From Vibrio azureus (GTDB lineage: Bacteria > Pseudomonadota > Gammaproteobacteria > Enterobacterales > Vibrionaceae): a stretch of DNA of 64,000 bases. Positions 19,512-50,927 of the stretch are shown here, piece by piece (the stretch's first letter is position 1; every line of letters starts with the position of its first letter). The stretch lies in NCBI RefSeq assembly GCF_002849855.1, contig NZ_CP018617.1, forward strand, positions 310,001 to 374,000, read 5' to 3'. The notes beneath the pieces are model-generated. The model worked only from the letters and a program-made list of their open reading frames with translations, was not told the origin of the DNA and did not search any database. Made by a program: the position numbers and the translations under genes.

Positions 19512-19577
19512 TTACGCGATCAAATAAAACGTTTACTTAATCAAAAGAAGTGTTATTTAAAACGGAATAAATTAACA
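19512..19577 (+). promoter_or_regulatory. Duplicated upstream block, copy 1 (before the AraC-type gene)
   Basis: TTACGCGAT, 20 bp, TCAAAAGAA, 16 bp, AATAAATTAACA. The same three elements occur with identical spacing at 20540-20605, exactly 1028 bp further on, upstream of the NusG paralog. It is a good candidate for a shared promoter/operator, perhaps bound by the AraC-type protein itself. Confidence 0.6.
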
Positions 19578-19763
19578 CGCCATGGAAAAAAATCCTACGG
19601 ACTATTAATTTAACAACATTAACATTTAGTAATAAAAACTACGAACAACAGCATTAGTGAAAGATTGTTATTTTTAATTTTATCATGTATTTGACTTTAC
19701 TTCAGGATTTTAGAGCATGCGTACGTATGTGCTGGTTAAATTATATAAAATAAAGGGAATTTT

Positions 19764-20503
19764 ATGGATATTATAACTTTAGTTGGTGAACAAAATAATC
19801 AAATTAAGATCTGTCATAAATTACTTACCGATGCAGGTTTTTGTGTCCATTTGGATACTGCTTGGGATACCCCCTTTTTAAAAAAACATCAGATCTTGTG
19901 CTGATTGAACAACCGCAACTGTTAAGCAAAGCAATACCATATCCGTTACCTAACAGTATACCTGTCATTGCCTTAGTTAACTCATCGGTATGCTGGCCGA
20001 TGACAGAGGTAAATCATGAGATCTACGATTACATTTGGACACCAGTGATTGGTGAAGAATTGATCTATCGCGTTAATCATGCACTTAAGAATACTGCGCG
20101 AGTAAAGCTGATAGATAATGACGATAGCTGCGAGGACAAGAGACTGGACATGATTTTTAATAGTCTGGAGACAAACCCTCAAGTTACTCCATTGGTGTTG
20201 AAAACTTGTCATTATTTGCATCAACACATCGAGCAAAAGCTAGTTCTGGATCAAGTTGCATCAGCGATGGGTACCAACAGGAGTAAATTGGCCGCAGAGT
20301 TCAAGTACTCACTTGGTAAAGGTGTGTTTGAATGGCTGCGTGAACAAAGGTTGCTGAAAGCCAAGCATTTACTTAGCCATACCAAAATGAGCATTCAGCA
20401 AGTTTCGCTATCGGTGGGTTATGAAAATAGTGGCAATTTTTCAACGGCCTATAAGAAGCAATTTAGCTTGTCGCCTAAGCAGCAAGTCAAATTAATTCGG
20501 TAA
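19764..20503 (+). CDS. AraC-type regulator with pseudo-receiver domain, interrupted by a -1 frameshift site
   Basis: Starts at ATG 19764 behind AAAGGGA. The first frame encodes MDIITLVGEQNNQIKICHKL to DTPFLKK and stops shortly after. A -1 shift at 19877-19883 joins it to a frame running to 20503, giving about 246 residues. The N-terminal half resembles a response-regulator receiver with SDLVLIEQ at the phosphorylation strand, Glu replacing Asp, so it is unlikely to be phosphorylated. The C-terminal 100 residues are an AraC-type double helix-turn-helix (VASAMGTNRSKLAAEFKYSL; MSIQQVSLSVGYENSGNF). The shift falls in C5-T5-A7 and on the heptamer T-TTA-AAA in the correct phase. It could be programmed frameshifting, phase variation, a fresh mutation or a sequencing error. 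It is placed to control the downstream array. Confidence 0.7.
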
Positions 20504-20539
20504 AATTCTATCCATTTTTGCAGAAATCGATGCACATTA

Positions 20540-20605
20540 TTACGCGATAAAATGCATATCTTACGCATTCAAAAGAAATGGTTTTAGATTTGCAATAAAT
20601 TAACA
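20540..20605 (+). promoter_or_regulatory. Duplicated upstream block, copy 2 (before the NusG paralog)
   Basis: Same elements and spacing as 19512-19577: TTACGCGAT, TCAAAAGAA, AATAAATTAACA. Lies 170-230 bp upstream of the NusG-like start. A further TATCTTACGC at 20557 repeats one also found at 19508. Confidence 0.6.
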
Positions 20606-20624
20606 GGGTGGATTAACACCCTGT
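20603..20624 (+). other. Perfect hairpin in the leader of the antiterminator gene
   Basis: ACAGGGTG and CACCCTGT, 8-bp arms, 6-nt loop, no T-tract. It follows directly on the duplicated block. It may end the AraC transcript weakly or act in the leader RNA. Confidence 0.5.
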
Positions 20625-20740
20625 AATGAAAAGTCACAATAATACAGAGGTTTAAAGAATATATTAGCTATGATTCTGGTGTTGTTATTTACCAGTAATC
20701 GTGTGAATAAGGAAATTATCTTAAGAAAGTCAAATGGGAC

Positions 20741-20760
20741 TTTTCGGCGGAGCCTGCTCG
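20741..20760 (+). promoter_or_regulatory. Possible ops-like recruitment element
   Basis: CGGCGGAGCCTGCTCG just upstream of the antiterminator start resembles the RfaH ops core GGCGGTAGCGTGC with one base missing and one changed. RfaH-class factors are loaded at such sites. The similarity is short and could be chance. Confidence 0.3.
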
Positions 20761-20771
20761 AAGGAAAAAAA

Positions 20772-21284
20772 ATGCAATATTGGTATGCGATTTATACAAA
20801 TCGAGATGCAGAATTCAAACTGCATGACAATATACAAAACTACAGTAATAGCAATTCTCTGAATTACGAAATCTATTTACCAATAGTCAAAGAAAAGCGT
20901 CAGTGGAGTGATCGAAAAGTTAAGGTGAATAGGCCAATGTTCAAAAACTATTTGTTCGTCAAGCACGGAGCAGAGGGGTTTCATCAACTCAAATCTCTTC
21001 CTGGTTTTAAGGATTATGTTCGGTTGGGACGTTATCCAAGCCAAATTACGCAAGAAGAAATTGATATGGTTAAGGTTGTCGAAAAAAACTTCGATAAAGT
21101 TGAATGTGTATCCTCTCGATTGATGCGGGGAGATAAAGTTAAAGTGTTTAATGGTGCGTTAAAAGGGCATCAAGGAATTTTGATCAAAGAGCCACACGGC
21201 TACAAAGTCGCATTAGAGCTCACTAGTTTAAGTCAGTGTATTAACGTTGAAGTACCAATTGAACACATCACATTATTGTCGTGA
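20772..21284 (+). CDS. NusG/RfaH-family transcription antiterminator paralog
   Basis: 170 residues. The NusG N-terminal domain opens with QYWYAIYTNRDAEFKLHDNI and carries IYLPIVKEKRQWSDRKVKVN and PMFKNYLFVKH. The C-terminal KOW motif is KVKVFNGALKGHQGILIKE at about residues 120-138. Specialised NusG paralogs (RfaH, LoaP, UpxY, ActX) travel with RNA polymerase and let it read long operons through terminators. Being first in a same-strand array of about 29 kb fits that role. The ATG behind AAGGA is chosen; an in-frame upstream ATG at 20670 adds residues foreign to the family. Confidence 0.9.
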   Translation: MQYWYAIYTNRDAEFKLHDNIQNYSNSNSLNYEIYLPIVKEKRQWSDRKVKVNRPMFKNYLFVKHGAEGFHQLKSLPGFKDYVRLGRYPSQITQEEIDMVKVVEKNFDKVECVSSRLMRGDKVKVFNGALKGHQGILIKEPHGYKVALELTSLSQCINVEVPIEHITLLS

Positions 21285-21314: not shown

Positions 21315-21560
21315 ATGAATACACTAAATTATCCATCCATTTCACGCCAACAATGGCAACAACTTACTCAGATGATTGAGAGTAAGTTCGCGATTGTTAT
21401 CGATTCTGAGCAAGGTCAAGCCAAGAGTAATGGTTTTCGATTTAGCTGGGCATATAACTCGCAGCAACAAGCTCTAGAGCTCATTTGTAACGAGAAGCCT
21501 ATTTTCGTGCCATATACTCTGATTAAGCATCAAGTAGACTCTCTCGTAAGCCAACTTTAA
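21315..21560 (+). CDS. Small protein of the giant-protein array (81 aa)
   Basis: 81 residues, soluble, from MNTLNYPSISRQQWQQLTQM to HQVDSLVSQL. AAGGAGC ribosome site. Gaps of about 30 bp to both neighbours mean co-transcription with the antiterminator. No family recognised; a small chaperone or adaptor for the large proteins is possible but unproven. Confidence 0.7.
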   Translation: MNTLNYPSISRQQWQQLTQMIESKFAIVIDSEQGQAKSNGFRFSWAYNSQQQALELICNEKPIFVPYTLIKHQVDSLVSQL

Positions 21561-21589: not shown

Positions 21590-24106
21590 ATGGATACCAC
21601 ACAAAAACTCTTTAACCTTGTACCTAACCACTGGCAAGATGTGTTGGTACAAGCGCATAAATTTGAAGGCTACATCGACAAGGCGGAGACTTTTGTCGAT
21701 GAACAGAAAATAGCCCTAGAAGCCCACGTTTCAGAATTATTTAACTTTCTAGATATTGATTGGGAGAAGCTTTCTACTTGGTTGCTACAAAACCCAATTT
21801 TAACTAAGTTCTCGGCCGTTAATATTGATATACCCGCGTTCATCGCCTTACCAGATGGGTTTGATGGCAACGACACCGCGCAGATGCAGGCACTTGTCAA
21901 AGAGAAGCTCGAATTGCTCAAACAAGCCTTTGCGCCGGTCGAGTTTGAGCAGATGAATCTGGACGAGCTGTTCCCACAGTTAGAAACCATCATCCAAACC
22001 TTAGTCGATTTACCCGAAGACCTAGACTTTGACGATCCACTGGCGGTGAACGAATATAAAAACAGCGTGATTGATTCGCTGAGGCCGCAAATTTACGCGC
22101 TGGTCAGCTCCTTGTTTGATCTGGACCTGAAAGACAGCATGTTGAATAGCACCTTAACCAGAACACAAACGCTGACCGACGATTTTGCCCAGAAGCTAAC
22201 ACAGTCTCCTCAGTCGCCACCAATGCAGAGCACGCAAGAAGGGCAAGATGTCGATTTCACCGATGAATTGCCCCTACAAGAAGAACCTCAAGAGGGTGTT
22301 ATTGATCCAGATTTAGGCACACTGTTTGAGCAAAACCCTGTGCAGGGCATTATCGCTTTTGTCGATAAGCTGAAAACCTTGTTACCTGCAATTGCTAACC
22401 AGTTTCAAGGCCAAAGCATCGCTGGCTTTGAAGTTGCGACGCTGATTACCATTGCCGAAGAGCTACTTACCCTTATTGCCGATAACCTTGCTGAGCTAGT
22501 GAATAAAATCGTAGAGACAGACTGGCAAAATCTAAACCTTGATGGCTTTGTGGCAGAGGTTCAATCAATCAAAGCGTTCGTGATTGAAAAGATAACCCAA
22601 TCACCGCTTGGTGGATTGTATCTCGCCATCAATTGGCCTTCTTCGTCACTGGGTTACGTGGAATCAACCCCAGAGCAAGCTTATGAAATGCTGAAAGAAG
22701 TGATAGCGGTGCCGCAAGAGCTCGAAAGTTGGGGTGAGTTACAGTCACTAACTTTACCGCAGCTGAGCGAAATCGCCCGTACTAAGCTCACCAGCGCGTT
22801 TGAACTGTTAAGGCACCTATCACCATTTGGGCTTTCCCCAGCAGGGTTAATAGACAAAGTATCCGAGCCGATGGACGCACTGCTTAGCGTGGCAAACGAC
22901 CATGATTTTGACGATTTAAGTGCCAATGTTCGCTTAGTGATTGGCAAGCTTACCTACCTTATTGAGCGGTTTTTCCCCAATTTAACGGGATCGTTAGAAC
23001 TGCCTGATGAGCATGACTTTAACGACCTGAAAGCCAACGGTCGTTTGTTGCTCGAAAAGATAATGGATATGGCTGATAAGTTGATTCCAGAACAAGATCG
23101 ATCTTTAGACGCCGGTTTAAAACCACTTGGGGAGTTGCCCTTATCGAGCTTGCTGTATTTTGTAGTAGAGCAACTTAAAAAAGGCCAACTGATTTACGAC
23201 TTTATTCAACAGCAAGACATAAAAATCGAGCTAGTCGATCAGACCCAACCCGCTGCCACAGGGCAAAAGGTGGTGGTGGAAGCACAGATTGGTCAGGAGG
23301 AGAAAGAAACCACTCAAACAACAAACCCAACTCAGCCGAATCAAACACAGGCCGCCAATCAACAAAACACCGCTGACACAGAGGCAGAAAAGCCTGATAC
23401 TGACAATAACAATGCGCAAGACCCAAATTTTGATAACGCAACAGATACCCAAGCAGATCCTCTGTCGCAAACCAATAGTGCGTTGTTAACGAATCAGCAG
23501 TGGTTAATGGCGATATTAGGTAATAAACAAACTGGCCTAATAAGCCAGATTGAAAATCAAGCCGAACAAGACTTTATCTTAAATCTACTCAGCGGCACGT
23601 TAGTTGATCAGGCAGTGAATACCTTCTTAGCGTGGCCAGAAGTCGCTAGCCTAAAAAACAATGCGCTAAGCGGCTTTGATGAGCTGCTTAAACAGTTAAG
23701 CCTGCATCCAGATCAAACCGACACCGCGCCATTAACCCTTGGCAGTTTGGTGACCTTCTCAGTTGAAGCGGTAGAAGCGGTATATAAAGCACTGCTGTCG
23801 CTGCTTGAAAAATCGATAATTACAGCCATTGAACTGCTTCACCGCACACTGTCACTATGTTTTAGCTTGCTTCGCTCTGCTCAAGTGCCAGAGGGCATGC
23901 TGCCACAGTTTTTCGAGCAACGCTTTGTACCTGTTATCGAATACACAACAGACAGCGATGCAGATGATGGTAGCGCATTGATTCAATATACCGACAGCAC
24001 TCCCAACATTTTGTGCCTAATGTTGGCGCTACCCGTGTCGACCATATCGAAACTATTAACACTGCCGCTTGAAGAATTGCAAGAGTGGATGGGGGAGGTG
24101 ACCTAA
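21590..24106 (+). CDS. Large acidic helical protein (838 aa), unknown
   Basis: No signal peptide. Leucine-rich and strongly acidic, predicted largely helical, with recurring segments such as HDFDDLSANVRLVIGKLTYL and HDFNDLKANGRLLLEKIMDM (residues about 438-500), a visible internal duplication. A Gln/Thr/Asn/Pro-rich low-complexity linker occupies residues about 565-630 and separates two helical halves. The last third has a hydrophobic stretch (VEAVYKALLSLLEKSIITAI). No known domain recognised. Base composition is higher in GC than the next gene. Second structural-looking gene of the array; a scaffold or length-setting role is speculation. Confidence 0.75.
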   Translation: MDTTQKLFNLVPNHWQDVLVQAHKFEGYIDKAETFVDEQKIALEAHVSELFNFLDIDWEKLSTWLLQNPILTKFSAVNIDIPAFIALPDGFDGNDTAQMQALVKEKLELLKQAFAPVEFEQMNLDELFPQLETIIQTLVDLPEDLDFDDPLAVNEYKNSVIDSLRPQIYALVSSLFDLDLKDSMLNSTLTRTQTLTDDFAQKLTQSPQSPPMQSTQEGQDVDFTDELPLQEEPQEGVIDPDLGTLFEQNPVQGIIAFVDKLKTLLPAIANQFQGQSIAGFEVATLITIAEELLTLIADNLAELVNKIVETDWQNLNLDGFVAEVQSIKAFVIEKITQSPLGGLYLAINWPSSSLGYVESTPEQAYEMLKEVIAVPQELESWGELQSLTLPQLSEIARTKLTSAFELLRHLSPFGLSPAGLIDKVSEPMDALLSVANDHDFDDLSANVRLVIGKLTYLIERFFPNLTGSLELPDEHDFNDLKANGRLLLEKIMDMADKLIPEQDRSLDAGLKPLGELPLSSLLYFVVEQLKKGQLIYDFIQQQDIKIELVDQTQPAATGQKVVVEAQIGQEEKETTQTTNPTQPNQTQAANQQNTADTEAEKPDTDNNNAQDPNFDNATDTQADPLSQTNSALLTNQQWLMAILGNKQTGLISQIENQAEQDFILNLLSGTLVDQAVNTFLAWPEVASLKNNALSGFDELLKQLSLHPDQTDTAPLTLGSLVTFSVEAVEAVYKALLSLLEKSIITAIELLHRTLSLCFSLLRSAQVPEGMLPQFFEQRFVPVIEYTTDSDADDGSALIQYTDSTPNILCLMLALPVSTISKLLTLPLEELQEWMGEVT

Positions 24107-24195: not shown

Positions 24196-25647
24196 ATGTC
24201 ATGGCCAATAGATGAACCTGTTTCAATTGAAGAGTATATTCAGCAAAGTATTGCAAATCAAAAGCTTGTTAAACTTTGTAACAAAGGTATGGAAACATAC
24301 TCACAAAATACAGAAAAGTTGAATATTTTATTTGATGCTATATTTGAAATATTAGATAGCGCTCAAGGTTATTGTGATAATCATAAACTTAGAAAAGCTG
24401 ATAATGCATACAAAGGAATCAGTGAGAATGTCAGATTTTTAGTTACCAATTTGGCATCATCAATTAAATATAAGCGAACAAGTACTGAGTACGAAGAAAT
24501 ATGGTCACTATCGGAGGGTGGAAATGACTATAGAAAGCAATTGATTAGCACGGGTGAAAAAATTGAGGATAAAAAAATTTGGTATCTTCCACTTAAGTTG
24601 CTTTCTAATTTCGAACCTAAAAAATATGGCTTGTATGGTAGTGGTGATGACTTCTCAGGAAATGTTAGTTGGAATGTTGATGAAAACTCACGTGAAGAAT
24701 ATGAGCTCGTCGAACCCTATGATAGAAATATAGACGCTGTTAACAATGTTGATGTTTTATGCGTCGAATGTAATAGCATCATTGAATTATATAGTCTATT
24801 TGAGAAAGTAGATGAATCTAAGGATACAAGTACGCCTGAAATTGTATCTCAAAACTTAATTTATGAAATTATAAAACCAGATGGGTATGAGAAAGGAGAC
24901 TTTAGTGGTTTTAATGATTATTTTATACTGTCAAAAAATAGAGAAGATTTAGTCAACACCTGTGTTGAGCTCGTTGAGGCAGTGTGGCTTCGCTATATAA
25001 ATAAGGCGGAGGTACTTTTGGCCAACAGAACTACCGTTATTGATTCATTAAAAATGACGAATAGAATTATACGTAACGTGATCAATTATAGTCGAAAGAA
25101 TACTACTATAGAGTTAAACGAAACTAAAATAAAAGTACTACCAAACCCTGTAGCAGAGGGATTTATGAATTCAATATCAATGCAAAGTAACATTATTGAT
25201 AGTCGTAAGGCACTTAGTATTTTGAAAGGGGCCACCTCCTTAGTTTCGCATGACTATCTCATGGTTAAAAATAAGATAGACTCATATGATAATCAATTTT
25301 TAGGGGTAAAATTAACCAAAAGTAGTTTGAAATCAAGTTATCCTGAAGAACTACATCGAGGTATAAAATTAAATATCAATATTGAGAAGGGGAATGAAAA
25401 ATGGGTTGAAACAAAAAAAGTGCTTTTGAAGAAGTTGGATTCTGGCAATGAGCAGTTAGAGGATGATATCCGAATAGTTGATTCTAAATTGTCTTCAAAA
25501 GAAATTAATGATATTCCATATTTGAGAACTTCAGTTACTAGATTAATGCAGTGGGCTCGAAAAGAGCCTCTCAATATATCGGTATGGTTGGATGAGTTAT
25601 TATTGATTATAAATGAGAGAGAGAATCTAATAGGCTCTATAGGATAA
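24196..25647 (+). CDS. AT-rich protein of the array (483 aa), unknown
   Basis: 483 residues, Lys/Asn/Ile/Ser-rich, no signal peptide and no membrane span. It is mainly helical with stretches such as NVRFLVTNLASSIKYKRTST and VTRLMQWARKEPLNISVWL. The DNA is clearly more AT-rich than the flanking 838-aa and 1507-aa genes, suggesting a separate origin within the array. AAGGAAG ribosome site. Nothing in it resembles an enzyme motif I know. It may be a variable cargo, effector or immunity component, but that is only suggested by position and composition. Confidence 0.7.
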   Translation: MSWPIDEPVSIEEYIQQSIANQKLVKLCNKGMETYSQNTEKLNILFDAIFEILDSAQGYCDNHKLRKADNAYKGISENVRFLVTNLASSIKYKRTSTEYEEIWSLSEGGNDYRKQLISTGEKIEDKKIWYLPLKLLSNFEPKKYGLYGSGDDFSGNVSWNVDENSREEYELVEPYDRNIDAVNNVDVLCVECNSIIELYSLFEKVDESKDTSTPEIVSQNLIYEIIKPDGYEKGDFSGFNDYFILSKNREDLVNTCVELVEAVWLRYINKAEVLLANRTTVIDSLKMTNRIIRNVINYSRKNTTIELNETKIKVLPNPVAEGFMNSISMQSNIIDSRKALSILKGATSLVSHDYLMVKNKIDSYDNQFLGVKLTKSSLKSSYPEELHRGIKLNINIEKGNEKWVETKKVLLKKLDSGNEQLEDDIRIVDSKLSSKEINDIPYLRTSVTRLMQWARKEPLNISVWLDELLLIINERENLIGSIG

Positions 25648-25778: not shown

Positions 25779-28700
25779 ATGCTTGCCAAACTATTCGCAG
25801 AAAAAAGCCTGCGCCTGACCACCCCTGCGGTAGATTTGGCGTTGGACTACGATGCTGTGGTTGACCACAGCATCTCCGCCTCAGGTTATGCTATTAGCCT
25901 GGGGGTTACCCCAAAACAATTAGAAGGAGATATATTTACCATCATCGAGCTGCTTGGCGGTGACGGTGCAGGACAAGATGCCAAAGACTTTCTTGGCGAA
26001 GGTATTGCCGATGTAATGAGCTTTATTCACTTTGAAACAGGGCAAATCAAGCTAGGTGATATGGTGTCGTTCTCCTACGATGACATTCGTTTAGTATATG
26101 AACAGGCTGCTAAGGGTGATAAAGAAAAGGAGGAGGCTAACAAAGGCGATACTGGCTACGATGACACTGATAACAGCGAAACCCTACTAACCAAACGCAA
26201 CACCTGTATTGAGGTACGCGGTGGTTTAATGTTTGATGTTGATGTGTCAGATCTGCTCGGCGAGGGGGCGTCGGTTCCCGAGCTAAACTTTGCAGGACTG
26301 CTGCGAATCAACGTCGGTAACATGGGGTTTGCGCCAATCTCGTTTGTGCCAGACGAGCAAAGCGTCGTACTACCAAAATCGTTAACCATTCCTCTGTTTG
26401 GCTTAGAAGACGATTTAACCATCACCCCAGATATTGAAGGACTTAACTTTGTCTCCCGAGGCTCGGGTAAAGACAAACACGCCTTGGTCACCTTTAGTGG
26501 CACGCTGCTTATCACTGGTGGCCCCTCGTGGATGCAGCCTGCCAATAATGAACCGCTTAAACTGCCGCTAGTACTCAGTGCTAAACAAGTCGATGGGGTG
26601 CGAAGACTCGCTCTGACCACGCCACTGTTTATTCAGGCGTTAAGTCTTGATTTGGCTGAGATATTGGGCACAGCAGCAGACCTTGGCGAGTTGGGCTTAT
26701 CGCTAGGTAATCTGAATCTATTGGTCTCCAGTGGTCACTCAAATAATGGCGACCAAGGCAAAGCGACATGCAGCGGCAGCATAGAATGCCATTGGCGTTT
26801 GCCGAGTGTGCTGAATGATGTGTTACCCATTGAGCCGTTTGTTGTCTTTGATAGTAATAGAGCAGAACAAACCACCTTTAAGATGCGTTTGAACTTCTCT
26901 GAAAGTGGCTTAACGGTTGATCTGCTTTCATCGCCATTGGCTCCGGCAGAGTTCGCAGGGTTTGAGTTTTATTCCGAGACGCGGCGAAATACCTACAACG
27001 AGTCTTGCCTGTGGTGGGTGATGAAATCGCATCAGTTCGGTCACATTGAATTTACTTCACCAAAATTTGTTAGCGATGGTTCGGGAGCCATGCGTGGTAG
27101 TGGTAGCTATAAAATCCTTGAGCCACTGTCGCTGCCACTCTCGTTGCTTAAAGATTTGCTCGCCAATGTTGGCTTGGGTGCAGTGGGTGAATTACTGCCT
27201 AACAGCGTCGCCCTACCGATACAAAGTGAAGGCAAGGATCTCAAATTAGGACTTGATTCATTCGGCGTTTTGGGCGAGTTAATGGATGATGCTTTAGGCG
27301 CTGTCGGTTTAGATATCGATGCGTTTAAAGCATTGTTGCCCGATTGGCTAGAACACTTCTTTACCATTAGTTTGCCATCACAATGTGATTACCACTTTAA
27401 TATCGACAGTAAGGGCAGTTGTACGGGAGGAATAACGCTGGCAGAAGGCGAAACGCTTAAATTGCTCCTACCAGCAGGCCCCGCATTGTATGGTATCGAA
27501 TTAAATTCGTTTTCACTTGGCCAATACCAAGCGGGTAAAATGGGCGTGCTTGAAGCCGATGGCACCATTGATCTGTTCTTGTTGCCCGAGATTGTTGCGT
27601 CTATGGCGGCAAGTGCTGCCAAGGTGCCGATGTTACCACCGTCAAGCTCGCTCATCACTCAGCTGAAATTTGAAAATCTGCTTGCGCTGGTGGATTTGAA
27701 TACCAAGTCAATTCAACCTGTGTTTTTTGACGACATCAGTTTAAGTCGAACAGGGGTGGAAGGATTTGAATTGGTGAGTCAATGGCATTTCCCCAAACCG
27801 ACGGTCGATGCCTTGCAACTTGCTCACACCATTACTCCGCTCATCGACTTTGTGACCACTAAAGAAGCGCTGCTGGAATCTAACGCAGACGACAGTCCTT
27901 TTGATACTTATTTTGAGATTGGTGAAAATTATCTCCAATTACCGGAATACTTAGGTGGTGTGATACTGGGTAAAAAAGGGGGCTCGATTGAGCGGTTTGA
28001 AGCCAAAGAGCTGTGGCCGTTTGTTGCCAACTCTTTAAATTTTATCAAAACAGGTCAGGTGGAACACTTATTGGCAGCCATGCCAATTGAATATCGAATC
28101 GGTAGTCAGGATGTAAGCTTCTTTGGCTTAGCGGATATACAAGTTAACTATCTGCTGAGTTCCCCTGACGAATTAGCGGATGTCGGCTTTCAAAAGCTAC
28201 AACTCAAAGGAGAAGATCAAACTCGAGCTCTGTCGGTTCTACCTAAATCAATAGTAAATGGGCAGGAAGAAGGCAATGGACTCGTTACATTACTGCGTGG
28301 TGAAGTCGACCTGAGTGATGCGATGAAAATGAGCACAACTTTTGGCTTCGCAATGAGTGAACAAGGAGTGCACAGTGGCTTTAATGCTAGTGGTCAGCTT
28401 GCCCAACTTTTTGCGATTGACATTAAAGGGGCAGTAGCACTGAATACTGAGCCTAAAGCAAGTATTATGCTTGAAGGTGCGACCAGTTTAAGGGTGGCGG
28501 ATCATCAAGTTATGTTCGGTTCAGTATCAATACAAAATGATAATTTACGCATCACAGGTGGCCTTGACTTGTTCCCTTACTTGCCACAAGTCAATATGAG
28601 CGCATTCATTGAAGGAGAGCTAAGCTCAAGTGACTTTTCATTAAATGGCCAACTGATTTTCAGTTTATTTGGTAATTCACTGCTTAAAGGCGATTTGGTG

Positions 28701-30448: not shown

Positions 30449-30542
30449 GGGTTGGTGTTTTTCAAAGTGGTAAAGCAGCAAATGCAAGCGTTGAGAATAT
30501 AAAAGTAATGTTCAGAATATAAAAATAAAGGTGGGATATTCA

Positions 30543-42757: not shown

Positions 42758-42767
42758 TATCTAGTCT

Positions 42768-42809
42768 CTTGGGTATATACCCAAGCACCTTGAGGTCATT
42801 TGGGTATAA
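42768..42809. repeat. Short palindromic repeat
   Basis: TATACCCAAGCACCTTGAGG with mirror CATTTGGGTATA; 3' of the barrel gene. Confidence 0.75.
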
Positions 42810-42853
42810 CCAAATAACCACAGAATTACTCATTATTAAATAGGGGGACGATC

Positions 42854-43750
42854 ATGCCCAGAAATACCAGTATTAAACTCGCATTGTATGGAGGGGCGGG
42901 TATTGGCTTATTATTTGGTATTGTAATGGGGTCAAGCATCGCACCTATTGCAGCAAAAACCTTAGCGGTGCTTGCTACGTTACTTGCAGCAATGCTTGGT
43001 TTAAATGACAAATATTTCAATGATACAAAATCGGTGAGAATTGGTTCATTTGGTTTTGCGTGCGTGCTTGGCATCATCATTGGAATGTTCGTTAGAGCGA
43101 ATAATATCTTATCCCCTTCTATGATGGATTTAAAACAGCAGTATTTGGCGGTTGGATTTAGTGAGGAAGAAGCTCTACATTTTATTGTCATCAAAGAGTT
43201 TGGCGGCACGGTATCGGGTTCAGATTCGTCAGTAAATACTCCACAATTGATTCAGCAGTTAGAAGGAGAAGCAAAACAGAATAACCAAAGTTCAACAGCA
43301 CCAATTCAATTTGCACAATCTATTGCAACTGCTCAGCATGCAAGTGTTTTATTTAGCTCTCCTGTTGAGCTAAATGGCTGTGATGAACTGGAATATACGG
43401 ACAACTCTCTTCCGCTTGATGAAGTTGTAAATAACTTTGAGCTTACAGGAGGTGTCTGGGAGGATCTCGTTGATCACGTTACAGAGCAAACTTCGCTTCA
43501 AGATAAAAAAGGGTTACTTCTTACAACAAAACATGCGGTCTGTCAGGTCGAACAGGTCGAAGAGCAAGAGTGTGATTCACTCACACCAGAAGTGATGAAC
43601 AGCAAGGATTATGAGTCTATTTTTTCTACTATGTCTAGCTTAGACCAAGATTGGCATACCGTCGCTTCCTCAATTGATACTTCATCACTCCATGAAGACC
43701 TAAAACTTCATTCGCTAAAAATGGTAAAAAATACATTGTGTGGATTCTAA
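42854..43750 (+). CDS. Membrane-anchored protein (298 aa), unknown
   Basis: 298 residues with two or three hydrophobic segments in the first 90 (YGGAGIGLLFGIVMGSSIAP, TLAVLATLLAAMLGL, FACVLGIIIGMFV), then a soluble acidic domain rich in Glu/Asp/Ser with few conserved-looking motifs (MDLKQQYLAVGFSEEEALHF). GGGG ribosome site. Nearly touches the protease gene that follows (1-bp gap), so they probably work together, for example as anchor and enzyme. Family unrecognised. Confidence 0.7.
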   Translation: MPRNTSIKLALYGGAGIGLLFGIVMGSSIAPIAAKTLAVLATLLAAMLGLNDKYFNDTKSVRIGSFGFACVLGIIIGMFVRANNILSPSMMDLKQQYLAVGFSEEEALHFIVIKEFGGTVSGSDSSVNTPQLIQQLEGEAKQNNQSSTAPIQFAQSIATAQHASVLFSSPVELNGCDELEYTDNSLPLDEVVNNFELTGGVWEDLVDHVTEQTSLQDKKGLLLTTKHAVCQVEQVEEQECDSLTPEVMNSKDYESIFSTMSSLDQDWHTVASSIDTSSLHEDLKLHSLKMVKNTLCGF

Positions 43751-43751
43751 G

Positions 43752-45416
43752 ATGATCGTTTTCTTATTGGAAAATAAGCGTTACTCTTGGCTGGTTAGCT
43801 TGGCGTTATTTTTTGCTTTTTTTAGTAGTAATTTTGTTTACGCAGGCTTTGACCCCGATAAATTAAGTCAATCAACAGTGAGAATCTTAATTAAGGGGAA
43901 GCAAGGCGTCACGGGAGCTGCGACAGGCTTCCTTTGGCAAAATAACCGCCAAGTCGTGACATCTTTACATGTCCTCTCTGGGCATTCAGAAAGCAAAATC
44001 ATTGTGGAATTTGGTAAGAAAAAGCGTCTAGGTCAGATAAAAGCACTCTTACCTGAAGCAGATTTGGTTCTTCTTGAGGTAAACAAGCCTGTTGAAGGTT
44101 GGATACCTCTCAAAACTTTTGACCAAGCGTCGCCAGAGTATAAAGAGGAAGTGTCTGCGCTGGGTTTTAATCGTGGTTCAATCGGTATGAGTACACGAGA
44201 GTTACGCAAAGGATTCGTTAAACCTGAAATATTGAAAGTGCTATTGCCACCCGACGCACTAAATAAGATTATTGCAGCTAATTTGTTAGATGTTTCATTA
44301 CCAATTTACTACCTAGATGGCAGCTTGTTACCGGGTTACTCTGGTGCACCAATTGTCAATACGGAAGGTCAGTTGATCGGTATAGGTAATGGTGGCTTGG
44401 AAAACGGTGCGTCTAGCGTTAGTTGGGTTATTCCTGCATCGAACTTAGTACAACTGACTCAAGCGAATACACCGGTAGAACTGCCACCTTCATTGAAGGC
44501 AATCAATACGTTGTTTAGCCAAGATCGGGTTGATGCATCTCAACAAATATCCTTGTTAACGCCCACCCGAGATACAGATGCAAAAAGTATATTCAATCTA
44601 CTGTCATCTTTTCTGATAGCACCAGCAAATGCCGACGAAGTGCAAGAGTTTGAATTTGGTTTATCTCAGCCTATCGAGGTGGATTACCAACAATTTCGTT
44701 TCATGAAGGTTAAAACCCGAACCTATCAATCATTGCTTGAATCCTCCGCAATACCGAGCGACATGAATAAGATCTTTCAGCTATTTGATGTCATTTTTCG
44801 TGATTACAAAATTCACTATCAAAACTTGGAATTTGATGTGTATGAGGATGGTCGATATGGGCTAAACATTGTTGTACCAAAGGGTGTTGCATTGATTGTT
44901 GAAGATGGGTATTTAGTGACTCAAGGCGATATGTTTTGTCGAACATGCTCGTATGAAATTCAGTATCATGCGAGGGTGTTAACGCCACAAGAACAGCTCG
45001 ATATACAGGAGGGGCCTGACAAGTTTTTGCATCTTGTTGCTAATAATCATTGGGATGATCTTAATCAAGAAGGAGATTATGGAAAATACGGAGATTTTAC
45101 ACAAATAGAATCGTTTGGCGCGCAACGGTATGTGCTCAGGGCGGCGTATTCCGACTTTAACGAACCATTTAAAGAAGTATTCGAGCTTAATTACTTTGTA
45201 GCGGCAACAAACCGAGAAGCTTGGTTTCAGGCACAAGGTATTTTAAATCGGTTTGATCAAGACTTTTTTACACGACTAGAACGTTTTCAAGGAACCGATT
45301 GTTCAAATCCGCAACTCAGCCATGATCAAATGAGAGTGTGTGGTGAGATTGAGACAATGTTTAAAGTCATGGTGAGCGTCCATTTAACAACATTTTCAAA
45401 TAAATTCTTCCTTTAA
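43752..45416 (+). CDS. Trypsin-like serine protease with extra C-terminal domain
   Basis: About 554 residues. A signal peptide or anchor (WLVSLALFFAFFSSNFVYA) precedes a chymotrypsin/HtrA-like protease domain at residues 40-235 with the full triad: His in VVTSLHVLSG near 72, Asp in EADLVLLEV near 102, Ser in LLPGYSGAPIVN near 195. The remaining 300 residues hold an unfamiliar domain with C-x-x-C (FCRTC) and C-terminal Cys pairs, and no PDZ domain is evident. Periplasmic or secreted. It could process array proteins. The ATG at 43752 is chosen; a GTG at 43740 overlapping the preceding gene is possible. Confidence 0.85.
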   Translation: MIVFLLENKRYSWLVSLALFFAFFSSNFVYAGFDPDKLSQSTVRILIKGKQGVTGAATGFLWQNNRQVVTSLHVLSGHSESKIIVEFGKKKRLGQIKALLPEADLVLLEVNKPVEGWIPLKTFDQASPEYKEEVSALGFNRGSIGMSTRELRKGFVKPEILKVLLPPDALNKIIAANLLDVSLPIYYLDGSLLPGYSGAPIVNTEGQLIGIGNGGLENGASSVSWVIPASNLVQLTQANTPVELPPSLKAINTLFSQDRVDASQQISLLTPTRDTDAKSIFNLLSSFLIAPANADEVQEFEFGLSQPIEVDYQQFRFMKVKTRTYQSLLESSAIPSDMNKIFQLFDVIFRDYKIHYQNLEFDVYEDGRYGLNIVVPKGVALIVEDGYLVTQGDMFCRTCSYEIQYHARVLTPQEQLDIQEGPDKFLHLVANNHWDDLNQEGDYGKYGDFTQIESFGAQRYVLRAAYSDFNEPFKEVFELNYFVAATNREAWFQAQGILNRFDQDFFTRLERFQGTDCSNPQLSHDQMRVCGEIETMFKVMVSVHLTTFSNKFFL

Positions 45417-45462
45417 TTTATACCCAAATGATCTCAAGCATTTGAGGTCACTTGGGTATATT
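45417..45462. repeat. Short palindromic repeat
   Basis: TATACCCAAATGATCTCAAG and mirror TCACTTGGGTATA, between protease and lipoprotein genes. Confidence 0.75.
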
Positions 45463-45497
45463 TATGATTATTAAATATGTTTTCATCTAGGAGTAAT

Positions 45498-48400
45498 ATG
45501 ACCATGCAAGTTTTTAAGTGGGTCATTTTTTTTATACCTTTGAGTTTTATTTTAGGCTGTCTTGAGGTGGGAGAGAATCAAGGCAGTTTAAAAGTGATGC
45601 TTTCGGGTTCTTTGCTAAAAGGCGTGGTGCGCAATGCTGATATTAAAGTGATCAATGAGAAAAACGTCTTAATATGGCAGGGAGAAAGTAATAATAATGG
45701 TCTTTTCGAAGCAGAATATGCCTTAGGGCAAGGCTCAATATTTACACTTATTTCAGACTTGTCCATCAAAGGAAGTATGCAGTGTGATTCAGTGTTCTGC
45801 TACGTGCCAAATCAAAATGAGCCATATAAGTTTGATGAAGATATACTCAATGAAGACTTAGGAAGTGTCGCGCTCAAAACAGCATGGTATCAGGACTCGC
45901 AAACTGATATGACAGGTGGTTTCGTCAGAGAGACACAACTTAATGGGTTAAGCACGTTAGTTGTTAACCTTGTTGAAAATGAGCTTGGGCACCCACTTGA
46001 TCAACAGAAATTTGATGCTTTGAGCAAAGTTGGGAGTGACATTGTGCTTGAGCTTTTTGGGTTCGAGTCTAATCTAGACTTGAATATGCTTAATCTAAGT
46101 CTTCCAAACGTTAAAGAAATTACCGATAAAATGGATGAAGAGTTTGTATTATTATCTTTAATTAATGCTGCAATTTCGTCAAATATTTCCTATTTATCTC
46201 TATTCACACAGCAGGAAAGCTTTTCTGAAGAATTTATCCTTACAGCTGAAATGAGAACCTTACTTTCTGAAATAAGAGTCAAGGTTTTATTAGCGGCGAA
46301 TGATTTAATAACAAGCCCTTATATTCCATTAAAATCCCCTTCCATTGGTAAAGAAATCAATAAAAGAGTGGTAGAGCCTATCGATTTTTCTAGGTTATCT
46401 GCACTGTTTGAAAACTTAGCAAGTATAAACCGTTCTTCAGCACGTCGGCCTGATGAAGTATTGTTTATTAATACTATCAATCAAGAGTTTACGTATGGTT
46501 CTCAGCCATTTTTGGCTTCCGCGAATTCAAGTAGTGGTAGACCTGTGACATATTCATCAAGCAATGAACAAGTCGCAACTATTAAAGAAGGGATGATAAC
46601 TATTATAGGCTCTGGAACCGCCACCATATCAGCAAGCGTGAGTGAAGATGAAGACTATTTAGCTGCGATGGATGCTTTTACTTTAGTTGTGAGTAAAGCA
46701 CTAAACCCTATACCATTTCCATTTTCGCAATTAGAGAAAACGTTCGGAGAAAAAAGCTTTTTCTTGCCCAGTATTATCAATGATGGCGATGATAGATCTA
46801 TTGAATATTTTTCTAGTAATCATGAGGTTGCGACTGTAGATCCTGTTACGGGAGAGGTAATGATTAAAGGGACGGGTAGCACGACCATTTCAGCACGTGT
46901 GGAGGAGGATAACCGCTATTTTGCAGCGACAGACAATTTTATTCTTAAGGTTAATAAAGCTAACAAGCGTGAACCTTTGCCATTTTCTGAACTAGAAAAA
47001 ATAGTAGGGGATACTGATTTTGTATTACCAAGTATTGTGACCAATGAAGACGATAGAACGGTTCGATATCACTCGAGTAATCATAGCGTAGCAGTGGTCG
47101 ATTCTGAGACTGGTAAGGTAACGCTTAAAGGAGCTGGTACGACAATTATTACCATGAGCGTAAATGAAAATGAGCACTACTTAGCGATACGAGATACTTT
47201 GACGTTAATCATTAACAAAGAAACGAGTACCGTACCCTTCCCATATTCGCACTTAGAGAAGACGTTTGGTGATGTAAGTTTTACATTGCCAAAGACTACG
47301 CCAGTTGGCGATAACCGAGCAATACAATATGTGTCAAGTAATCATGATGTAGCAGTCGTTGACTCAGAGAAAGGAAGCGTAATTATTCAAGGTGCTGGCA
47401 CGACACTCATTTCAGCAAGCGTGAACGAAAATGAGCGCTTTTTGGCAGCGGAAGAAACCTTGACACTGACGGTCAAGAGAGCTGTCGATCAGGCGTCTTT
47501 TCCTATTGCTAAAATTGAAAAAACGTTTGGTGATAAAAACTTTGTTCTACCGAGTATTATCAAAAGTAGTGAAGGTGGCATCGTTCAGTATTTCTCGCTT
47601 AATCATGAGGTCGCATTAGTGAATGTAGATAGTGGAGAAGTGAGCATTAATGGTGCGGGAAAAACAAAGATTCTTGCAACCATCTCAGGACGAGATAACT
47701 ATCACGATATCGTTTTTAGTGATGATGTTTCTGTTGAGATTGATATAGCCAAAGCGGATAGAATTGCGACATTTTCTCAGCCTTTTATGGCAGGAAAAAA
47801 AGGCGATAGTTTTATTCAGGAAGTTCTTGTTGATGGTTCCGTGAGTGAGATTACTTATATATCATCAGACCCATCGGTGGTGCTGGTTGATCAAGCAAGT
47901 GGGCAAGTGAGTTTATTAAAACCTGGTACTGCAACGGTAACAGGGACAGTAACAGAAGAAGCGAATTGGAATCCTGCCTATGCGGATTATAGCGTGTATG
48001 TTTACAGTAAAGAGGTCAACGATACAGGCCTAACTCGATGCTTTGATCATATACAGCAGATAAATTGTGGTGAGAGCTTTATTGGGCAAGATGCGGAGTA
48101 TGGTCGTGATGTTTCCACTTATAATGATCATGATGGCTATGGTGGTTTCAGTTTTGCGAAGTTAGACTCACAAGGAAAAGTAATTAATGAAGATGTAGAC
48201 ACCACAGTGACTGAATGGTCTTGTGTCTTGGATCTTGTTACAGGGCTAAGATGGCAAGTCAAAAAACAAGATGGCAGTGTTCATAGCAGCGAGAGGCAGT
48301 TCTACTGGTTCAATGATGACCAAACGACAAATGGTGGAAAGGAGGGGACGAAATCTGATAGCAACCATCTTGATAGCCAAGATTACGTTACCCTTGTGAA

Positions 48401-48656
48401 CGAAAGCCGACTTTGTGGGGCTGAAAACTGGCGTTTGCCAACAGTCATTGAACTGTCGAGCTTAATCAATTTTGGAACGAATGGATTAAAAGTAGATCAT
48501 CGATTTTTTCCAACGATCAATAATGGCATTTATTGGACATTCAACTCATTTTTACCAGATTCAGATGATGCATGGTACATAAGTTTTAGTACAGGCCATA
48601 GTTCATATCGTTCTAAAACAAATACCGCCAATTATCTAATACTTGTTTCTAACTAA
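45498..48656 (+). CDS. Lipoprotein with six Big2-type Ig repeats and DUF1566 end
   Basis: About 1052 residues. Lipobox FILGC with the lipidated Cys near residue 21, so membrane-anchored. Residues about 325-835 contain six bacterial Ig-like group-2 repeats of about 83 residues with the pattern YxSSNxxVAxVDxxTGxVxIxGxG, each starting (P)FPFSxLEKTFGD; the DNA is correspondingly repetitive. Residues about 895-1050 are a DUF1566/Lcl-type domain (DLVTGLRWQVKKQD, AENWRLPTVIELSSLINFG, DDAWYISFSTGHSS). The layout is typical of surface stalks that present a C-terminal tip. ATG 45498 is chosen for the AGGAG site. Confidence 0.88.
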   Translation: MTMQVFKWVIFFIPLSFILGCLEVGENQGSLKVMLSGSLLKGVVRNADIKVINEKNVLIWQGESNNNGLFEAEYALGQGSIFTLISDLSIKGSMQCDSVFCYVPNQNEPYKFDEDILNEDLGSVALKTAWYQDSQTDMTGGFVRETQLNGLSTLVVNLVENELGHPLDQQKFDALSKVGSDIVLELFGFESNLDLNMLNLSLPNVKEITDKMDEEFVLLSLINAAISSNISYLSLFTQQESFSEEFILTAEMRTLLSEIRVKVLLAANDLITSPYIPLKSPSIGKEINKRVVEPIDFSRLSALFENLASINRSSARRPDEVLFINTINQEFTYGSQPFLASANSSSGRPVTYSSSNEQVATIKEGMITIIGSGTATISASVSEDEDYLAAMDAFTLVVSKALNPIPFPFSQLEKTFGEKSFFLPSIINDGDDRSIEYFSSNHEVATVDPVTGEVMIKGTGSTTISARVEEDNRYFAATDNFILKVNKANKREPLPFSELEKIVGDTDFVLPSIVTNEDDRTVRYHSSNHSVAVVDSETGKVTLKGAGTTIITMSVNENEHYLAIRDTLTLIINKETSTVPFPYSHLEKTFGDVSFTLPKTTPVGDNRAIQYVSSNHDVAVVDSEKGSVIIQGAGTTLISASVNENERFLAAEETLTLTVKRAVDQASFPIAKIEKTFGDKNFVLPSIIKSSEGGIVQYFSLNHEVALVNVDSGEVSINGAGKTKILATISGRDNYHDIVFSDDVSVEIDIAKADRIATFSQPFMAGKKGDSFIQEVLVDGSVSEITYISSDPSVVLVDQASGQVSLLKPGTATVTGTVTEEANWNPAYADYSVYVYSKEVNDTGLTRCFDHIQQINCGESFIGQDAEYGRDVSTYNDHDGYGGFSFAKLDSQGKVINEDVDTTVTEWSCVLDLVTGLRWQVKKQDGSVHSSERQFYWFNDDQTTNGGKEGTKSDSNHLDSQDYVTLVNESRLCGAENWRLPTVIELSSLINFGTNGLKVDHRFFPTINNGIYWTFNSFLPDSDDAWYISFSTGHSSYRSKTNTANYLILVSN

Positions 48657-48786: not shown

Positions 48787-49317
48787 ATGAAAAGGAGTCT
48801 TATTGTTATAAATAAGATATTTCTTATTTATTTTATTATCTATTCAATAAATTTACAGGCTCAAACATGTTACAGCAATATTGAACCAACGGCTCCTGAT
48901 CAAAGATTTCAAATTGAAGAGCCTACCCCCAATGAAGCTGTAGTTATTGATACCGAAACATCATTGATGTGGAAGCGATGCAGTGAAGGTTTAGAGGGAC
49001 GTAATTGTGATCAAGGAATAAGAAGTAAATTGACTTGGGAGGCTGCCTTATTGTCCACGATTTCGCAAGGTTTTGCTGGTTACTCTGACTGGAGAGTGCC
49101 AGATATAAAGGAACTGACAAGCTTACTTGAAATGTCATGCAGAGTACCTGTTATCAATGGAAATATATTTCCTGTATTTGGTGGGGGCTACTACTGGACA
49201 TCATCAACAAATATTGACCAGCTCGACCAAGCGTGGGTGATATATTTTAACTGGGGGTATATTACCACCGGTAGTAAAGATGGAACTAACGAATTATTAC
49301 TTGTGAGAAATAATTGA
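48787..49317 (+). CDS. Exported DUF1566 (Lcl) protein
   Basis: 176 residues with a signal peptide (IFLIYFIIYSINLQAQ) followed by one DUF1566 domain: VVIDTETSLMWKRCSEGLEG, GYSDWRVPDIKELTSLLEM, YYWTSSTNIDQLDQAWVIYF. The fold is found in secreted lectin-like surface proteins. It repeats the C-terminal tip domain of the preceding lipoprotein, so it may be a soluble version or have arisen by domain duplication. AAGGAT ribosome site. Only 21 bp before the endolysin gene. Confidence 0.85.
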   Translation: MKRSLIVINKIFLIYFIIYSINLQAQTCYSNIEPTAPDQRFQIEEPTPNEAVVIDTETSLMWKRCSEGLEGRNCDQGIRSKLTWEAALLSTISQGFAGYSDWRVPDIKELTSLLEMSCRVPVINGNIFPVFGGGYYWTSSTNIDQLDQAWVIYFNWGYITTGSKDGTNELLLVRNN

Positions 49318-49338
49318 ATAATTGGACAGGAGAGATAA

Positions 49339-50157
49339 ATGCATACAATCAAATCAGGTGAAACATTAATGTCGATTTGTAATGAACAATATGGTGATTC
49401 AAATTTATATCTTAAGGTTGCCAAATTTAATAATATTTCAAATCCGAATCTAATTAGAGAGGGGCAAAATATTTCACTTCCTAGTATAGATGACCTGTGT
49501 ACGGTAAGTACAAATAAAACGAATCATAATGGTTATGTTACCACTGATATTGTCTCTCGATTATGCTCTCATTTTAATCGAGAAAAATGCCATGTTATTT
49601 CTGTTGCATTAAATGAAAACATGGATAAGCATGATATTAAAAGTAAATTACAAGTAGCTCACTTTTTAGCGCAGATATTACATGAAAGTAATATGCTTAA
49701 AGCGACCAGTGAAAATCTGAATTACAGTGCTAAAGCGCTAAAGAGTGTGTTCGGTAAGTACTTTCAATGTGATGAAGATTGTGTGCGATACGCAAGGAAA
49801 CCTGAGAAGATTGCCAATCTTGTTTACGCGAATAGAATGGGCAATGGCACTATCAACTCAGGCGATGGTTGGCGATATCGAGGCCGAGGATTAATTCAAT
49901 TAACAGGTAAAAATAACTATATTCATTTCAATAAAACAGTAGATCTGGATGTTGTGGCCAATCCAGATCTTGTGAGTTCTGATCCTGATCTTTGCGTGGC
50001 TTCTGCGTGTTGGTTTTGGCAGAAAAATAAGCTCAACGAATTTGCAGATCATGATGATGTTGTTAAGGTAACAAGACGAATCAATGGTGGAATAAACGGG
50101 TTAGCCCATCGTAAAGAGCTGTTATTATTAGTCAAAAAACTGCTCAATCAAACATAA
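49339..50157 (+). CDS. LysM-GH19 endolysin
   Basis: 272 residues. Residues 1-48 are a LysM peptidoglycan-binding domain (MHTIKSGETLMSICNEQYGD ... NISLPS). Residues about 95-265 are a GH19 chitinase/lysozyme-type domain with catalytic Glu in HFLAQILHESN and the conserved GDGWRYRGRGLIQLTGKNNY and RRINGGING segments. No signal peptide, as expected of a phage endolysin that needs a holin to reach the wall. GGAGAG ribosome site. It cleaves the glycan of peptidoglycan, less likely chitin; with the CBM5/12 protein nearby, chitin cannot be excluded. No spanin gene was found. Confidence 0.9.
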   Translation: MHTIKSGETLMSICNEQYGDSNLYLKVAKFNNISNPNLIREGQNISLPSIDDLCTVSTNKTNHNGYVTTDIVSRLCSHFNREKCHVISVALNENMDKHDIKSKLQVAHFLAQILHESNMLKATSENLNYSAKALKSVFGKYFQCDEDCVRYARKPEKIANLVYANRMGNGTINSGDGWRYRGRGLIQLTGKNNYIHFNKTVDLDVVANPDLVSSDPDLCVASACWFWQKNKLNEFADHDDVVKVTRRINGGINGLAHRKELLLLVKKLLNQT

Positions 50158-50203
50158 TCAACTAAAAATACGATATCACCAAATCGTATTGAAGTACGTG
50201 CAA

Positions 50204-50255
50204 TGTCCAAATGACTTCAAGATACTTGATTTGGAATGAGGTCACTTGGGTGTAT
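50204..50255. repeat. Short palindromic repeat, degenerate left arm
   Basis: GTCCAAATGACTTCAAGATA to CACTTGGGTGTAT, between endolysin and holin genes. Confidence 0.65.
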
Positions 50256-50289
50256 TAATTAGAAAATGAATACTTTTTAAGGATAAATC

Positions 50290-50727
50290 ATGTCATTATT
50301 TTCATCGACATTATCTTCTGGTGTCAGTCACTTAGTTGACTCAATAGGCAATGCAATTGACAGTTTAATTACTTCGGATGAAGAAAAAGGTCAACTTAAA
50401 ATAGAACTTGAAAAAGAATTGAATGGATTCAAAGTTGCTCAACTTAATGCTTTAGCAAAGAAAGATGAGGAAGTAAGCACTAGGCATCAAAATGATATGA
50501 AATCGGACAGTTGGCTTTCTAAAAATATACGACCACTTTCTGTTGCATTTTTGACCATCTCTACGATGGTATTGGCTTACCTTACTATCTTTATTCTTTC
50601 TCCAGAACATATTGATATAATTACCCCTTGGTTAGATTTACTGAAAACGCTTCTGATTACGATATATGCGTTTTACTTTGGAAGTCGAGGTATAGAAAAA
50701 GTTCAGTCGATTCGGAGTACAAAATAG
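50290..50727 (+). CDS. Holin of the 3-TM type
   Basis: 145 residues. The N-terminal part is amphipathic (VSHLVDSIGNAIDSLITSDE), followed by a coiled helix KIELEKELNGFKVAQLNALA, the hinge DSWLSKNIRPLSVAFL and two strong spans (STMVLAYLTIFIL; WLDLLKTLLITIYAFYFGSRG). This is the Holin_3TM (PF11351) pattern of phage and tailocin clusters. It would form inner-membrane pores that release the adjacent endolysin. Last gene of the array, followed by a terminator. Confidence 0.88.
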   Translation: MSLFSSTLSSGVSHLVDSIGNAIDSLITSDEEKGQLKIELEKELNGFKVAQLNALAKKDEEVSTRHQNDMKSDSWLSKNIRPLSVAFLTISTMVLAYLTIFILSPEHIDIITPWLDLLKTLLITIYAFYFGSRGIEKVQSIRSTK

Positions 50728-50894
50728 TTCATCAGCTCGAGTAATTTAGCTCCACGAGAGCGAGCTCCGAAGTTTAACAAACAGTAGAAAATCTCCTGTA
50801 CATGTTTTTCATTCAGAAAGACTTTCAGGTTGATCTTGTTGCTTCTTTTAACGTATCACCTTATGAAACCACGTTGTTTTCTTCGTTGTTTTTC

Positions 50895-50927
50895 GCGCAG
50901 TATGCAGCCAGCACTGCGCTTTTTTTC
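50895..50927 (+). terminator. Terminator of the giant-protein array
   Basis: GCGCAGT and ACTGCGC arms with an 11-nt loop and seven T. It is the strongest terminator in the window. Confidence 0.88.

Follow-up and report, generated by a model that had tools for sequence, protein, structure and literature searches.

A conserved core of giant proteins and adaptor fibres in a Vibrio azureus gene array: candidate parts of an undescribed modular particle

A stretch of 64,000 nucleotides of Vibrio azureus DNA (contig NZ_CP018617.1, positions 310,001 to 374,000; hereafter the window), part of contig 2 of a 4.83 Mb genome, contains an open reading frame (ORF) for an AraC-type regulator followed by 16 genes on the same strand (window positions 19512..50927). 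These encode giant proteins, two fibres, an endolysin and a holin. Which of these genes belong together, and what do they make? An earlier description made from the sequence (the original prediction) took the array to be one undescribed system, and all of its genes were indeed found where it had placed them. Comparison with related loci gave evolutionary support to a smaller unit of variable slot, DUF6603 protein, g790, g1346 and adaptor fibres (21590-41592), and the earlier border is too wide. On balance, we lean towards the view that this unit encodes a modular, effector-carrying protein particle that derives from no known tail or Tc machine.

The core and its fibres

The three core genes lie side by side on the forward strand: the gene of the DUF6603 giant protein (25779..30302; PF20248, 8.7e-79), g790 (30531..32903) and the signature gene g1346 (32900..36940), whose product has invariant alignment columns. 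The genes for g790 and g1346 overlap by 4 bases. The g790 gene had been described with a product of 786 aa; the gene holds, and its product becomes 790 aa when read from an upstream GTG. Three family libraries (Pfam, PHROG and NCBIfam) were run on the window proteins, and g790 and g1346, as well as g838 further upstream, had no match in any of them.

A protein search with g1346 returned 54 rows, the window's own protein among them, and of 215 pattern matches in one scan of GTDB genomes, 213 were relatives. The best 80 of these 213, each with up to 10 kb of DNA per side, are the related loci used below. They carry nine phylum labels in the tree, to which record titles add SAR324 and KSB1, and many carriers are cyanobacteria by record title. 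DUF6603, g790 and g1346 occur together in seven of the nine phyla (Cyanobacteriota, Acidobacteriota, Chloroflexota, Pseudomonadota, Bacillota, Bacteroidota and Actinomycetota). In the genus of the window the core is rare: beyond the window, weak matches were found in just 2 of 195 genomes, and at class level 4 of 368 other genomes had matches. Seven plasmids carry distant relatives. A tblastn search of 50,697 phage records found neither g1346 nor DUF6603, and in IMG/VR the stretches picked out by the search patterns (5 and 22) all lack an encoded relative. Sinobacterium caligoides, whose loci lie outside those compared here, has four g1346 paralogues (P0013, P0014, P0016 and P0019), so a single cell may harbour more than one cassette.

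Profiles for DUF6603, g790, g1346 and the N-terminal fibre adaptor were run on the ORFs of the 80 loci. In 44 loci the DNA extends 8 kb or more to both sides; among these, DUF6603 was present in 40, g790 in 32, an adaptor fibre in 27 and all of them in 19. The g790 profile gave 67 matches in 55 loci, counting the window's own and two split loci of the genus. For the neighbour counts, three loci without an ORF labelled g1346 were excluded; g790 lies directly 5' of g1346 in 36 of 70 testable loci, and an adaptor fibre directly 3' of it in 40 of 63. Two gene orders recur. One is that of the window (slot - DUF6603 - g790 - g1346 - fibre); the other is g1346 - fibre - slot - DUF6603 - g790, where g790 may fall beyond the 10 kb. 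The genes had been expected to stay together in relatives rather than lie scattered, and DUF6603, g790, g1346 and the adaptor fibre do so in several phyla. Since this synteny holds across phyla, the array goes beyond chance.

Because these loci had been picked by g1346, the reverse search was made by DUF6603 alone. Of 398 genomes from the phylum, 9 contain PF20248, counting that of the window; the 14 control genomes have none. All eight other genomes (seven genera; two are close relatives) carry g790 and g1346 beside DUF6603.

Several loci join these proteins in one ORF. DUF6603 and g790 are fused in L014 and L034, g1346 and a collar tip in L079, and an ORF of 2882 aa in L027 covers both the g1346 match and the adaptor. 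In L024, L069 and L077 the adaptor domain is the C-terminus of g1346 itself. The fusions suggest a chain DUF6603 - g790 - g1346 - fibre. They also bear on the idea that the core giants are intracellular or envelope-bound proteins (lipid-transfer-like or storage proteins, for example) next to which fibre and slot genes simply happen to occur often. The fusion of the core with fibre tip and adaptor, together with a gene order that recurs in several phyla, makes this improbable in our judgement.

Both window fibres combine an N-terminal adaptor with a different tip: a phage-tail-collar domain in fibre 1 (37046..39151, +; Collar, 6.1e-07), and a coiled coil with a CBM5/12 tip in fibre 2 (fib787; 39229..41592, +; CBM_5_12, 8.1e-06, exactly at the cut-off). 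The latter tip is perhaps for chitin. Their N-terminal regions match each other at 7.6e-19, and this adaptor of 150 aa recurs in 55 ORFs of 45 loci, the window's own included, down to distant loci. The tips are exchanged: clustering of 46 fibres by tip gave 19 groups, and the tip domains include Collar, S74, Laminin_G_3, Fib_succ_major and CBM. This common adaptor, and the swappable slot described below, go beyond the original prediction. In a Lewinella cassette, a two-part glycosyltransferase with tetratricopeptide repeats is encoded beside the fibres (L053:17677-19590).

The fibre profile matches the solved tail fibre 9qgo (E 3.2e-17), the Bdellovibrio protein bd2133 (8ond, E 1.8e-07) and 6ov6, and the fibres match tail-fibre PHROGs. 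For the relatives, the best 25 of 99 and the best 25 of 95 families include tail-fibre families as well as a single tail protein family. Such matches are what would be seen if the locus encoded a DNA-less, phage-tail-like or prophage-derived particle, a tailocin relative whose tube and baseplate had diverged past recognition. The Collar and S74 matches fit this explanation, as do the endolysin and holin of the window and a few baseplate-named PHROG rows. These rows are weak and come from the LysM part of the endolysin alone (e.g. phrog_975, 2.2e-05). Against it, no sheath, tube or capsid family was matched by the window proteins scanned, and both the phage records and the matched IMG/VR stretches lack relatives of the core. 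We consider a tailocin origin very unlikely. As described earlier, capsid, portal, terminase, sheath and integrase families were all missing from the window proteins scanned (the AraC-type protein and big1059 lay outside the PHROG scan), which also sets the array apart from a tailed prophage in both its Pfam and its PHROG matches.

The variable slot and the DUF6603 protein

Directly 5' of DUF6603 lies a gene that differs from locus to locus; in relatives its product can be a lipase, a subtilase or a protein of the metallo-beta-lactamase fold or of DNase I-like type. The gap between this slot gene and DUF6603 is short (median 21 bases, with 33 of 37 loci at 100 or fewer; 131 bases in the window). 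Above the Pfam cut-off, slot proteins match Lipase_3 (L002, 2.4e-15), Lactamase_B (L008, L012 and L036), Peptidase_S8 (L026) and Exo_endo_phos (L078, 3.5e-06). Lactamase_B in the L016 slot is slightly under the cut-off, and weaker rows below it were obtained for Exo_endo_phos (L024, L070 and L039) and Lactamase_B (L031). The L008 slot protein also has weak matches to ComEC proteins. A further slot family, grouped by clustering, comprises L015, L021, L032, L033, L048 and L054 and shares an EWCHL-GHGDGG motif, read in sequences that do not include that of L032; it may be an HNH-like nuclease.

In the window, g483 (24196..25647, +) holds the slot position by locus comparison and is a candidate cargo. 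The gene before it, g838 (21590..24106, +), lies in the variable region 5' of DUF6603 and could encode a cargo or a cargo partner. In a protein search whose scoring covered the 7993 candidates with most words in common with it, g838 found only itself. For g483, the family libraries gave weak rows only, and a single relative, 95% identical, was found on a 3.2 kb contig. The orphan status of both proteins fits a fast-changing slot.

Two pairs of close loci illustrate the exchange. In the Okeania loci L002 and L004, g1346 is 88% identical and the slot proteins do not match each other. Their fibres match over the first ∼ 580 residues, and their DUF6603 proteins have most of the shorter protein in common, one of them carrying ≈ 250 extra N-terminal residues. 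The Microcystis loci L021 and L031 occupy the same insertion site, with flanking proteins 93-100% identical and g1346 81% identical; both slot and fibre tip differ. Of the next ORF, which is cut by the locus end and was not labelled DUF6603, the later part alone matches.

Exchange of the slot tends to go along with change in the N-terminal part of DUF6603. Over 703 non-independent locus pairs, 3 of them in neither class, we compared slot homology with the N-terminal coverage of DUF6603. At a core identity of at least 40%, median coverage was 1.00 with homologous slots (14 pairs) versus 0.63 without (80 pairs). The corresponding values were 0.84 (7 pairs) versus 0.42 (465) at 30-40% identity, and 0.98 (4 pairs) versus 0.53 (130) at 20-30%. 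Residues 1-850 of the window's DUF6603 protein have no homologue in the loci at 1e-5. In a sub-type of the cassette (L115-L119), the DUF6603 ORFs reach 3247-3390 aa, with more than 2300 residues ahead of the conserved part. The C-terminal part is conserved, amphipathic and beta-rich; the beta moment of this core has a z of 6.3 in the window and a median of 4.7 over 55 homologues.

Export signals were estimated by a crude N-terminal hydrophobicity score (hydrophobic 10-mer), to which all calls by score below refer. A strongly hydrophobic N-terminus was rare throughout the unit: 1 of 53 DUF6603 proteins and 7 of 77 g1346 had one, as against none of the 59 g790, the 51 adaptor fibres and the 38 slot proteins, and by this score both window fibres lack it. 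As core, fibres and cargo are mostly without signal peptides, the particle would probably be built in the cytoplasm.

The slot enzymes allow another explanation, a feeding complex for adhesion and digestion that is either bound to the cell or shed. Its fibres would bind polymers or surfaces and its slot enzyme would digest DNA, lipid or protein outside, with no entry into a target cell. Lipase, subtilase and nuclease-fold slot proteins would suit such a role, as would CBM5/12 and lectin-like tips, the cyanobacterial titles of many carriers, the absence of immunity-like neighbours and the export-type proteins that follow g1346 in L043 and L114 (both detailed below). However, signal peptides are normal for exported enzymes and adhesins, and the crude test found none in the 38 slot proteins and 51 adaptor fibres. 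The joint swap of the slot and part of its carrier would also be more typical of effectors. We regard a feeding complex as unlikely, though deserving more weight than the tailocin and intracellular alternatives.

A proposed particle and the known machines

For the effector-carrying particle that we favour, we propose the following course. DUF6603, g790 and g1346 would form a chassis, on which fibres would dock via the 150-aa adaptor, probably on the C-terminal side of g1346. The exchangeable tips would recognise a target surface or cell. The cargo, an enzyme in a number of relatives, would be the protein encoded directly 5' of DUF6603, loading probably on the variable N-terminal part of that protein. 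The conserved, amphipathic and beta-rich part of DUF6603 may work at a membrane in the form of a barrel or a lipid-facing sheet. Probably assembled in the cytoplasm, the particle would exit by lysis or another route; in the genome of the window, the adjacent endolysin and holin could serve for this. It would then bind by its tips and present or deliver the cargo.

A more far-reaching version is put forward tentatively, as an appreciable possibility that falls short of our expectation: a categorically new, non-contractile extracellular delivery machine. Here, a DUF6603/g790/g1346 particle with adaptor-docked, swappable tips would carry a cargo enzyme via the DUF6603 N-terminal part, the beta-rich part would open or cross target membranes, and the cassette would have spread by horizontal transfer over many phyla. 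The targets would be non-kin, perhaps eukaryotic, cells, because no immunity gene accompanies the cargo. If the particle reading is right, a delivery-type machine would be added whose core has no match in the families of the type VI secretion system (T6SS), extracellular contractile injection systems (eCIS), tailocins and Tc toxins; its carriers include cyanobacteria, Chloroflexota, Actinomycetota, Bacteroidota and Pseudomonadota, besides others, and hundreds of 'hypothetical' giant proteins would gain a function. Since tips and cargo are swapped in nature, both binding and the loading of cargo can be tested directly.

Several observations weigh against the particle and its delivery. Both are things that we infer, the system being known here from its genes alone. 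Four of the 44 well-bounded g1346 loci lack both DUF6603 and g790. Just 8 of 48 slot-region proteins have an enzyme-family match (E 1e-3; the 48 are 10 + 32 + 5 + 1, with one Fe-ADH neighbour, judged housekeeping, left out). Many slot proteins are without identity, and those of the window are orphans with no recognisable enzyme. High N-terminal coverage also occurs without slot homology (0.99 in L049/L054 and 0.94 in L002/L004), and the non-independence of the pairs weakens the comparison as a whole. The likeness of DUF6603 to a barrel has a root-mean-square deviation of 7-19 Å, in a model that is partly confident only. The export score misses the probable signal of omb307 (1.61). Directly after g1346, L043:13711-15156, with fibre-like repeats, and L114:16179-18821 have an export-type N-terminus by eye, and some relatives may export their fibre. 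The release genes gh19 and holin are not conserved with the core in the 80 loci. Finally, 35 of 37 loci have no immunity-like ORF (60-199 aa, same strand; larger or distant genes fall outside the count) beside the slot; this speaks against a toxin system of the ordinary antibacterial kind.

How does the cassette compare with machines already described? Tc toxins follow a cargo-and-receptor logic like that of the proposed particle, and their complexes are built of TcA, TcB and TcC families (SpvB, TcdB mid and RHS domains). No Tc family domain was found in the window proteins (Pfam, E 0.01); the window core differs, and the cargo of the cassette is a separate gene 5' of DUF6603. According to excerpts of two papers, the Tc toxin of Yersinia entomophaga is built in the cytoplasm and released by a holin/endolysin/spanin set, a type 10 secretion system (PMC10847048; PMC10847046). 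We see in it the closest working analogue that can be suggested: the giant proteins of the window would likewise be assembled in the cytoplasm, phage-type lysis genes lie near them, and holin and endolysin form a gene pair outside a phage. In contrast to that secretion system, the lysis genes of the cassette were not found with the core in the 80 loci, and no spanins were recognised by eye.

The eCIS, of which the PVC is an example, resemble the proposed particle in having a fixed core, exchangeable fibre tips and exchangeable cargo. Unlike eCIS, T6SS and tailocins, the window array has no sheath, tube or AAA ATPase families in the proteins scanned; apart from the LysM-derived baseplate rows, there was one DotU row for the holin, far under the cut-off (14.6 of 90 bits). 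Among adhesins, excerpts of PMC10769870 describe the mosaic adhesive trimers (MATs) of Bdellovibrio, of which bd2133 is a member, as proteins on the predator surface in which a signal peptide precedes a conserved beta-rich domain. The cassette fibres share with them a phage-fibre-like tip region (8ond, 9qgo and 6ov6, at the level of sequence, with trimers putative), whereas the adaptor fibres have no signal in 51 of 51 cases by the crude score and go together with three giant core proteins. Polymorphic toxins, in excerpts of PMC3482391, likewise join a conserved carrier to exchanged enzyme modules; in the cassette, the toxicity of these is putative. However, the module of the cassette is a separate upstream gene rather than a C-terminal tip, in 35 of 37 loci the slot has no small immunity-like gene next to it, and the DUF6603 family is not among the carriers described in those excerpts.

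The core had been predicted to lack clear homology to any named phage or injection system, and none emerged from the phage and viral searches or the family scans. With no phage, T6SS, eCIS or Tc family match for the core, the claim of signal-less giant proteins and fibre tips forming an undescribed system stands, and the system appears, as judged from its sequences, to be undescribed. Neither the name DUF6603 nor the accession PF20248 occurs in 5.39 million PubMed Central open-licence texts, which omit most subscription journals and all preprints; among the papers listed there by broader searches, none describes such a system in its title or the start of its abstract.

Flanking genes and local regulation

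The profiles upheld the domains predicted for the array (HTH_18/AraC, NusG paralog, DUF6603, Collar, CBM_5_12, Trypsin_2, Big_2, Lcl_C, GH19 and holin). The prediction of one 16-gene system was not supported: in single-sequence phmmer searches (E 1e-3) of the 80 loci, 11 genes (NusG, p81, g838, g483, omb307, anch298, tryp558, big1059, lcl176, gh19 and holin) had no homologue within the 10 kb per side, genes farther away remaining possible. Downstream of the fibres, omb307, anch298, tryp558 and big1059 (41834..48656, +) and lcl176 (48787..49317, +; Lcl_C/DUF1566, 2.9e-29) are doubtful members. No family match in the three libraries was obtained for omb307, a putative outer-membrane barrel by the earlier description; tryp558 matches Trypsin_2, and big1059 Big_2 with Lcl_C. 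By score, anch298, tryp558 and big1059 are of export type (N-terminal hydrophobic 10-mer at least 2.2), and lcl176 also has an export-type N-terminus.

The possible release genes are gh19, encoding a LysM-GH19 endolysin (49339..50157, +; phrog_181, 2.1e-75) without a signal peptide by score, and holin (50290..50727, +; phrog_3427, 5.5e-26), which is followed by an ORF of 85 aa. Their adjacency makes release through holin and endolysin possible. Since neither has a relative in the 80 loci, lytic release is a guess specific to the window. Inspection by eye of ORFs of at least 40 aa between 50100 and 51700, with no model search, revealed no spanin-like ORF.

At the 5' end, the AraC-type ORF (19841..20503, +; HTH_18, 9.9e-20) begins with TTG and is likely a local regulator; AraC-type matches in related loci were just three, all weak, in L072 and L075. 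Within 19764-20503, ahead of the TTG start, an ATG frame enters in another frame and then stops, and the regulator is possibly divided between the two. The NusG paralog (20670..21284, +) resembles UpxY-type antiterminators: it clears the NCBIfam UpxY cut-off (NF033644, 111.8 bits versus 100) and falls short of the RfaH and LoaP cut-offs. RfaH ops-like sites were not above chance (6 found versus 6.5 expected). From its family, the paralog could help transcription of a 20 kb operon. Between it and g838 lies p81, encoding an 81-aa protein without a family match in the Pfam and PHROG scans (21315..21560, +).

A repeat of 66 nt forms two putative operator copies, 5' of the AraC ORF (19508..19577, +) and 5' of NusG (20540..20605, +). 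Its local alignment score of 42 was reached in none of 1000 Markov shuffles (largest 40), a test run after the repeat was seen; the motif-scan pattern was built from its two copies. With the UpxY-type NusG paralog and this repeat before both genes, regulation looks local.

Two other repeats were observed. A tandem duplication of 120 nt, with copies 84% identical, lies 5' of the regulator (18978-19217). Between many genes (19195, 30386, 41678, 41749, 42771, 45428, 48692, 51319, 54146 and 55405) there is a dispersed repeat of ≈ 32-62 nt with CACTTGGGTATA or a similar sequence at its end; the copy at 30386 sits within the array, between DUF6603 and g790.

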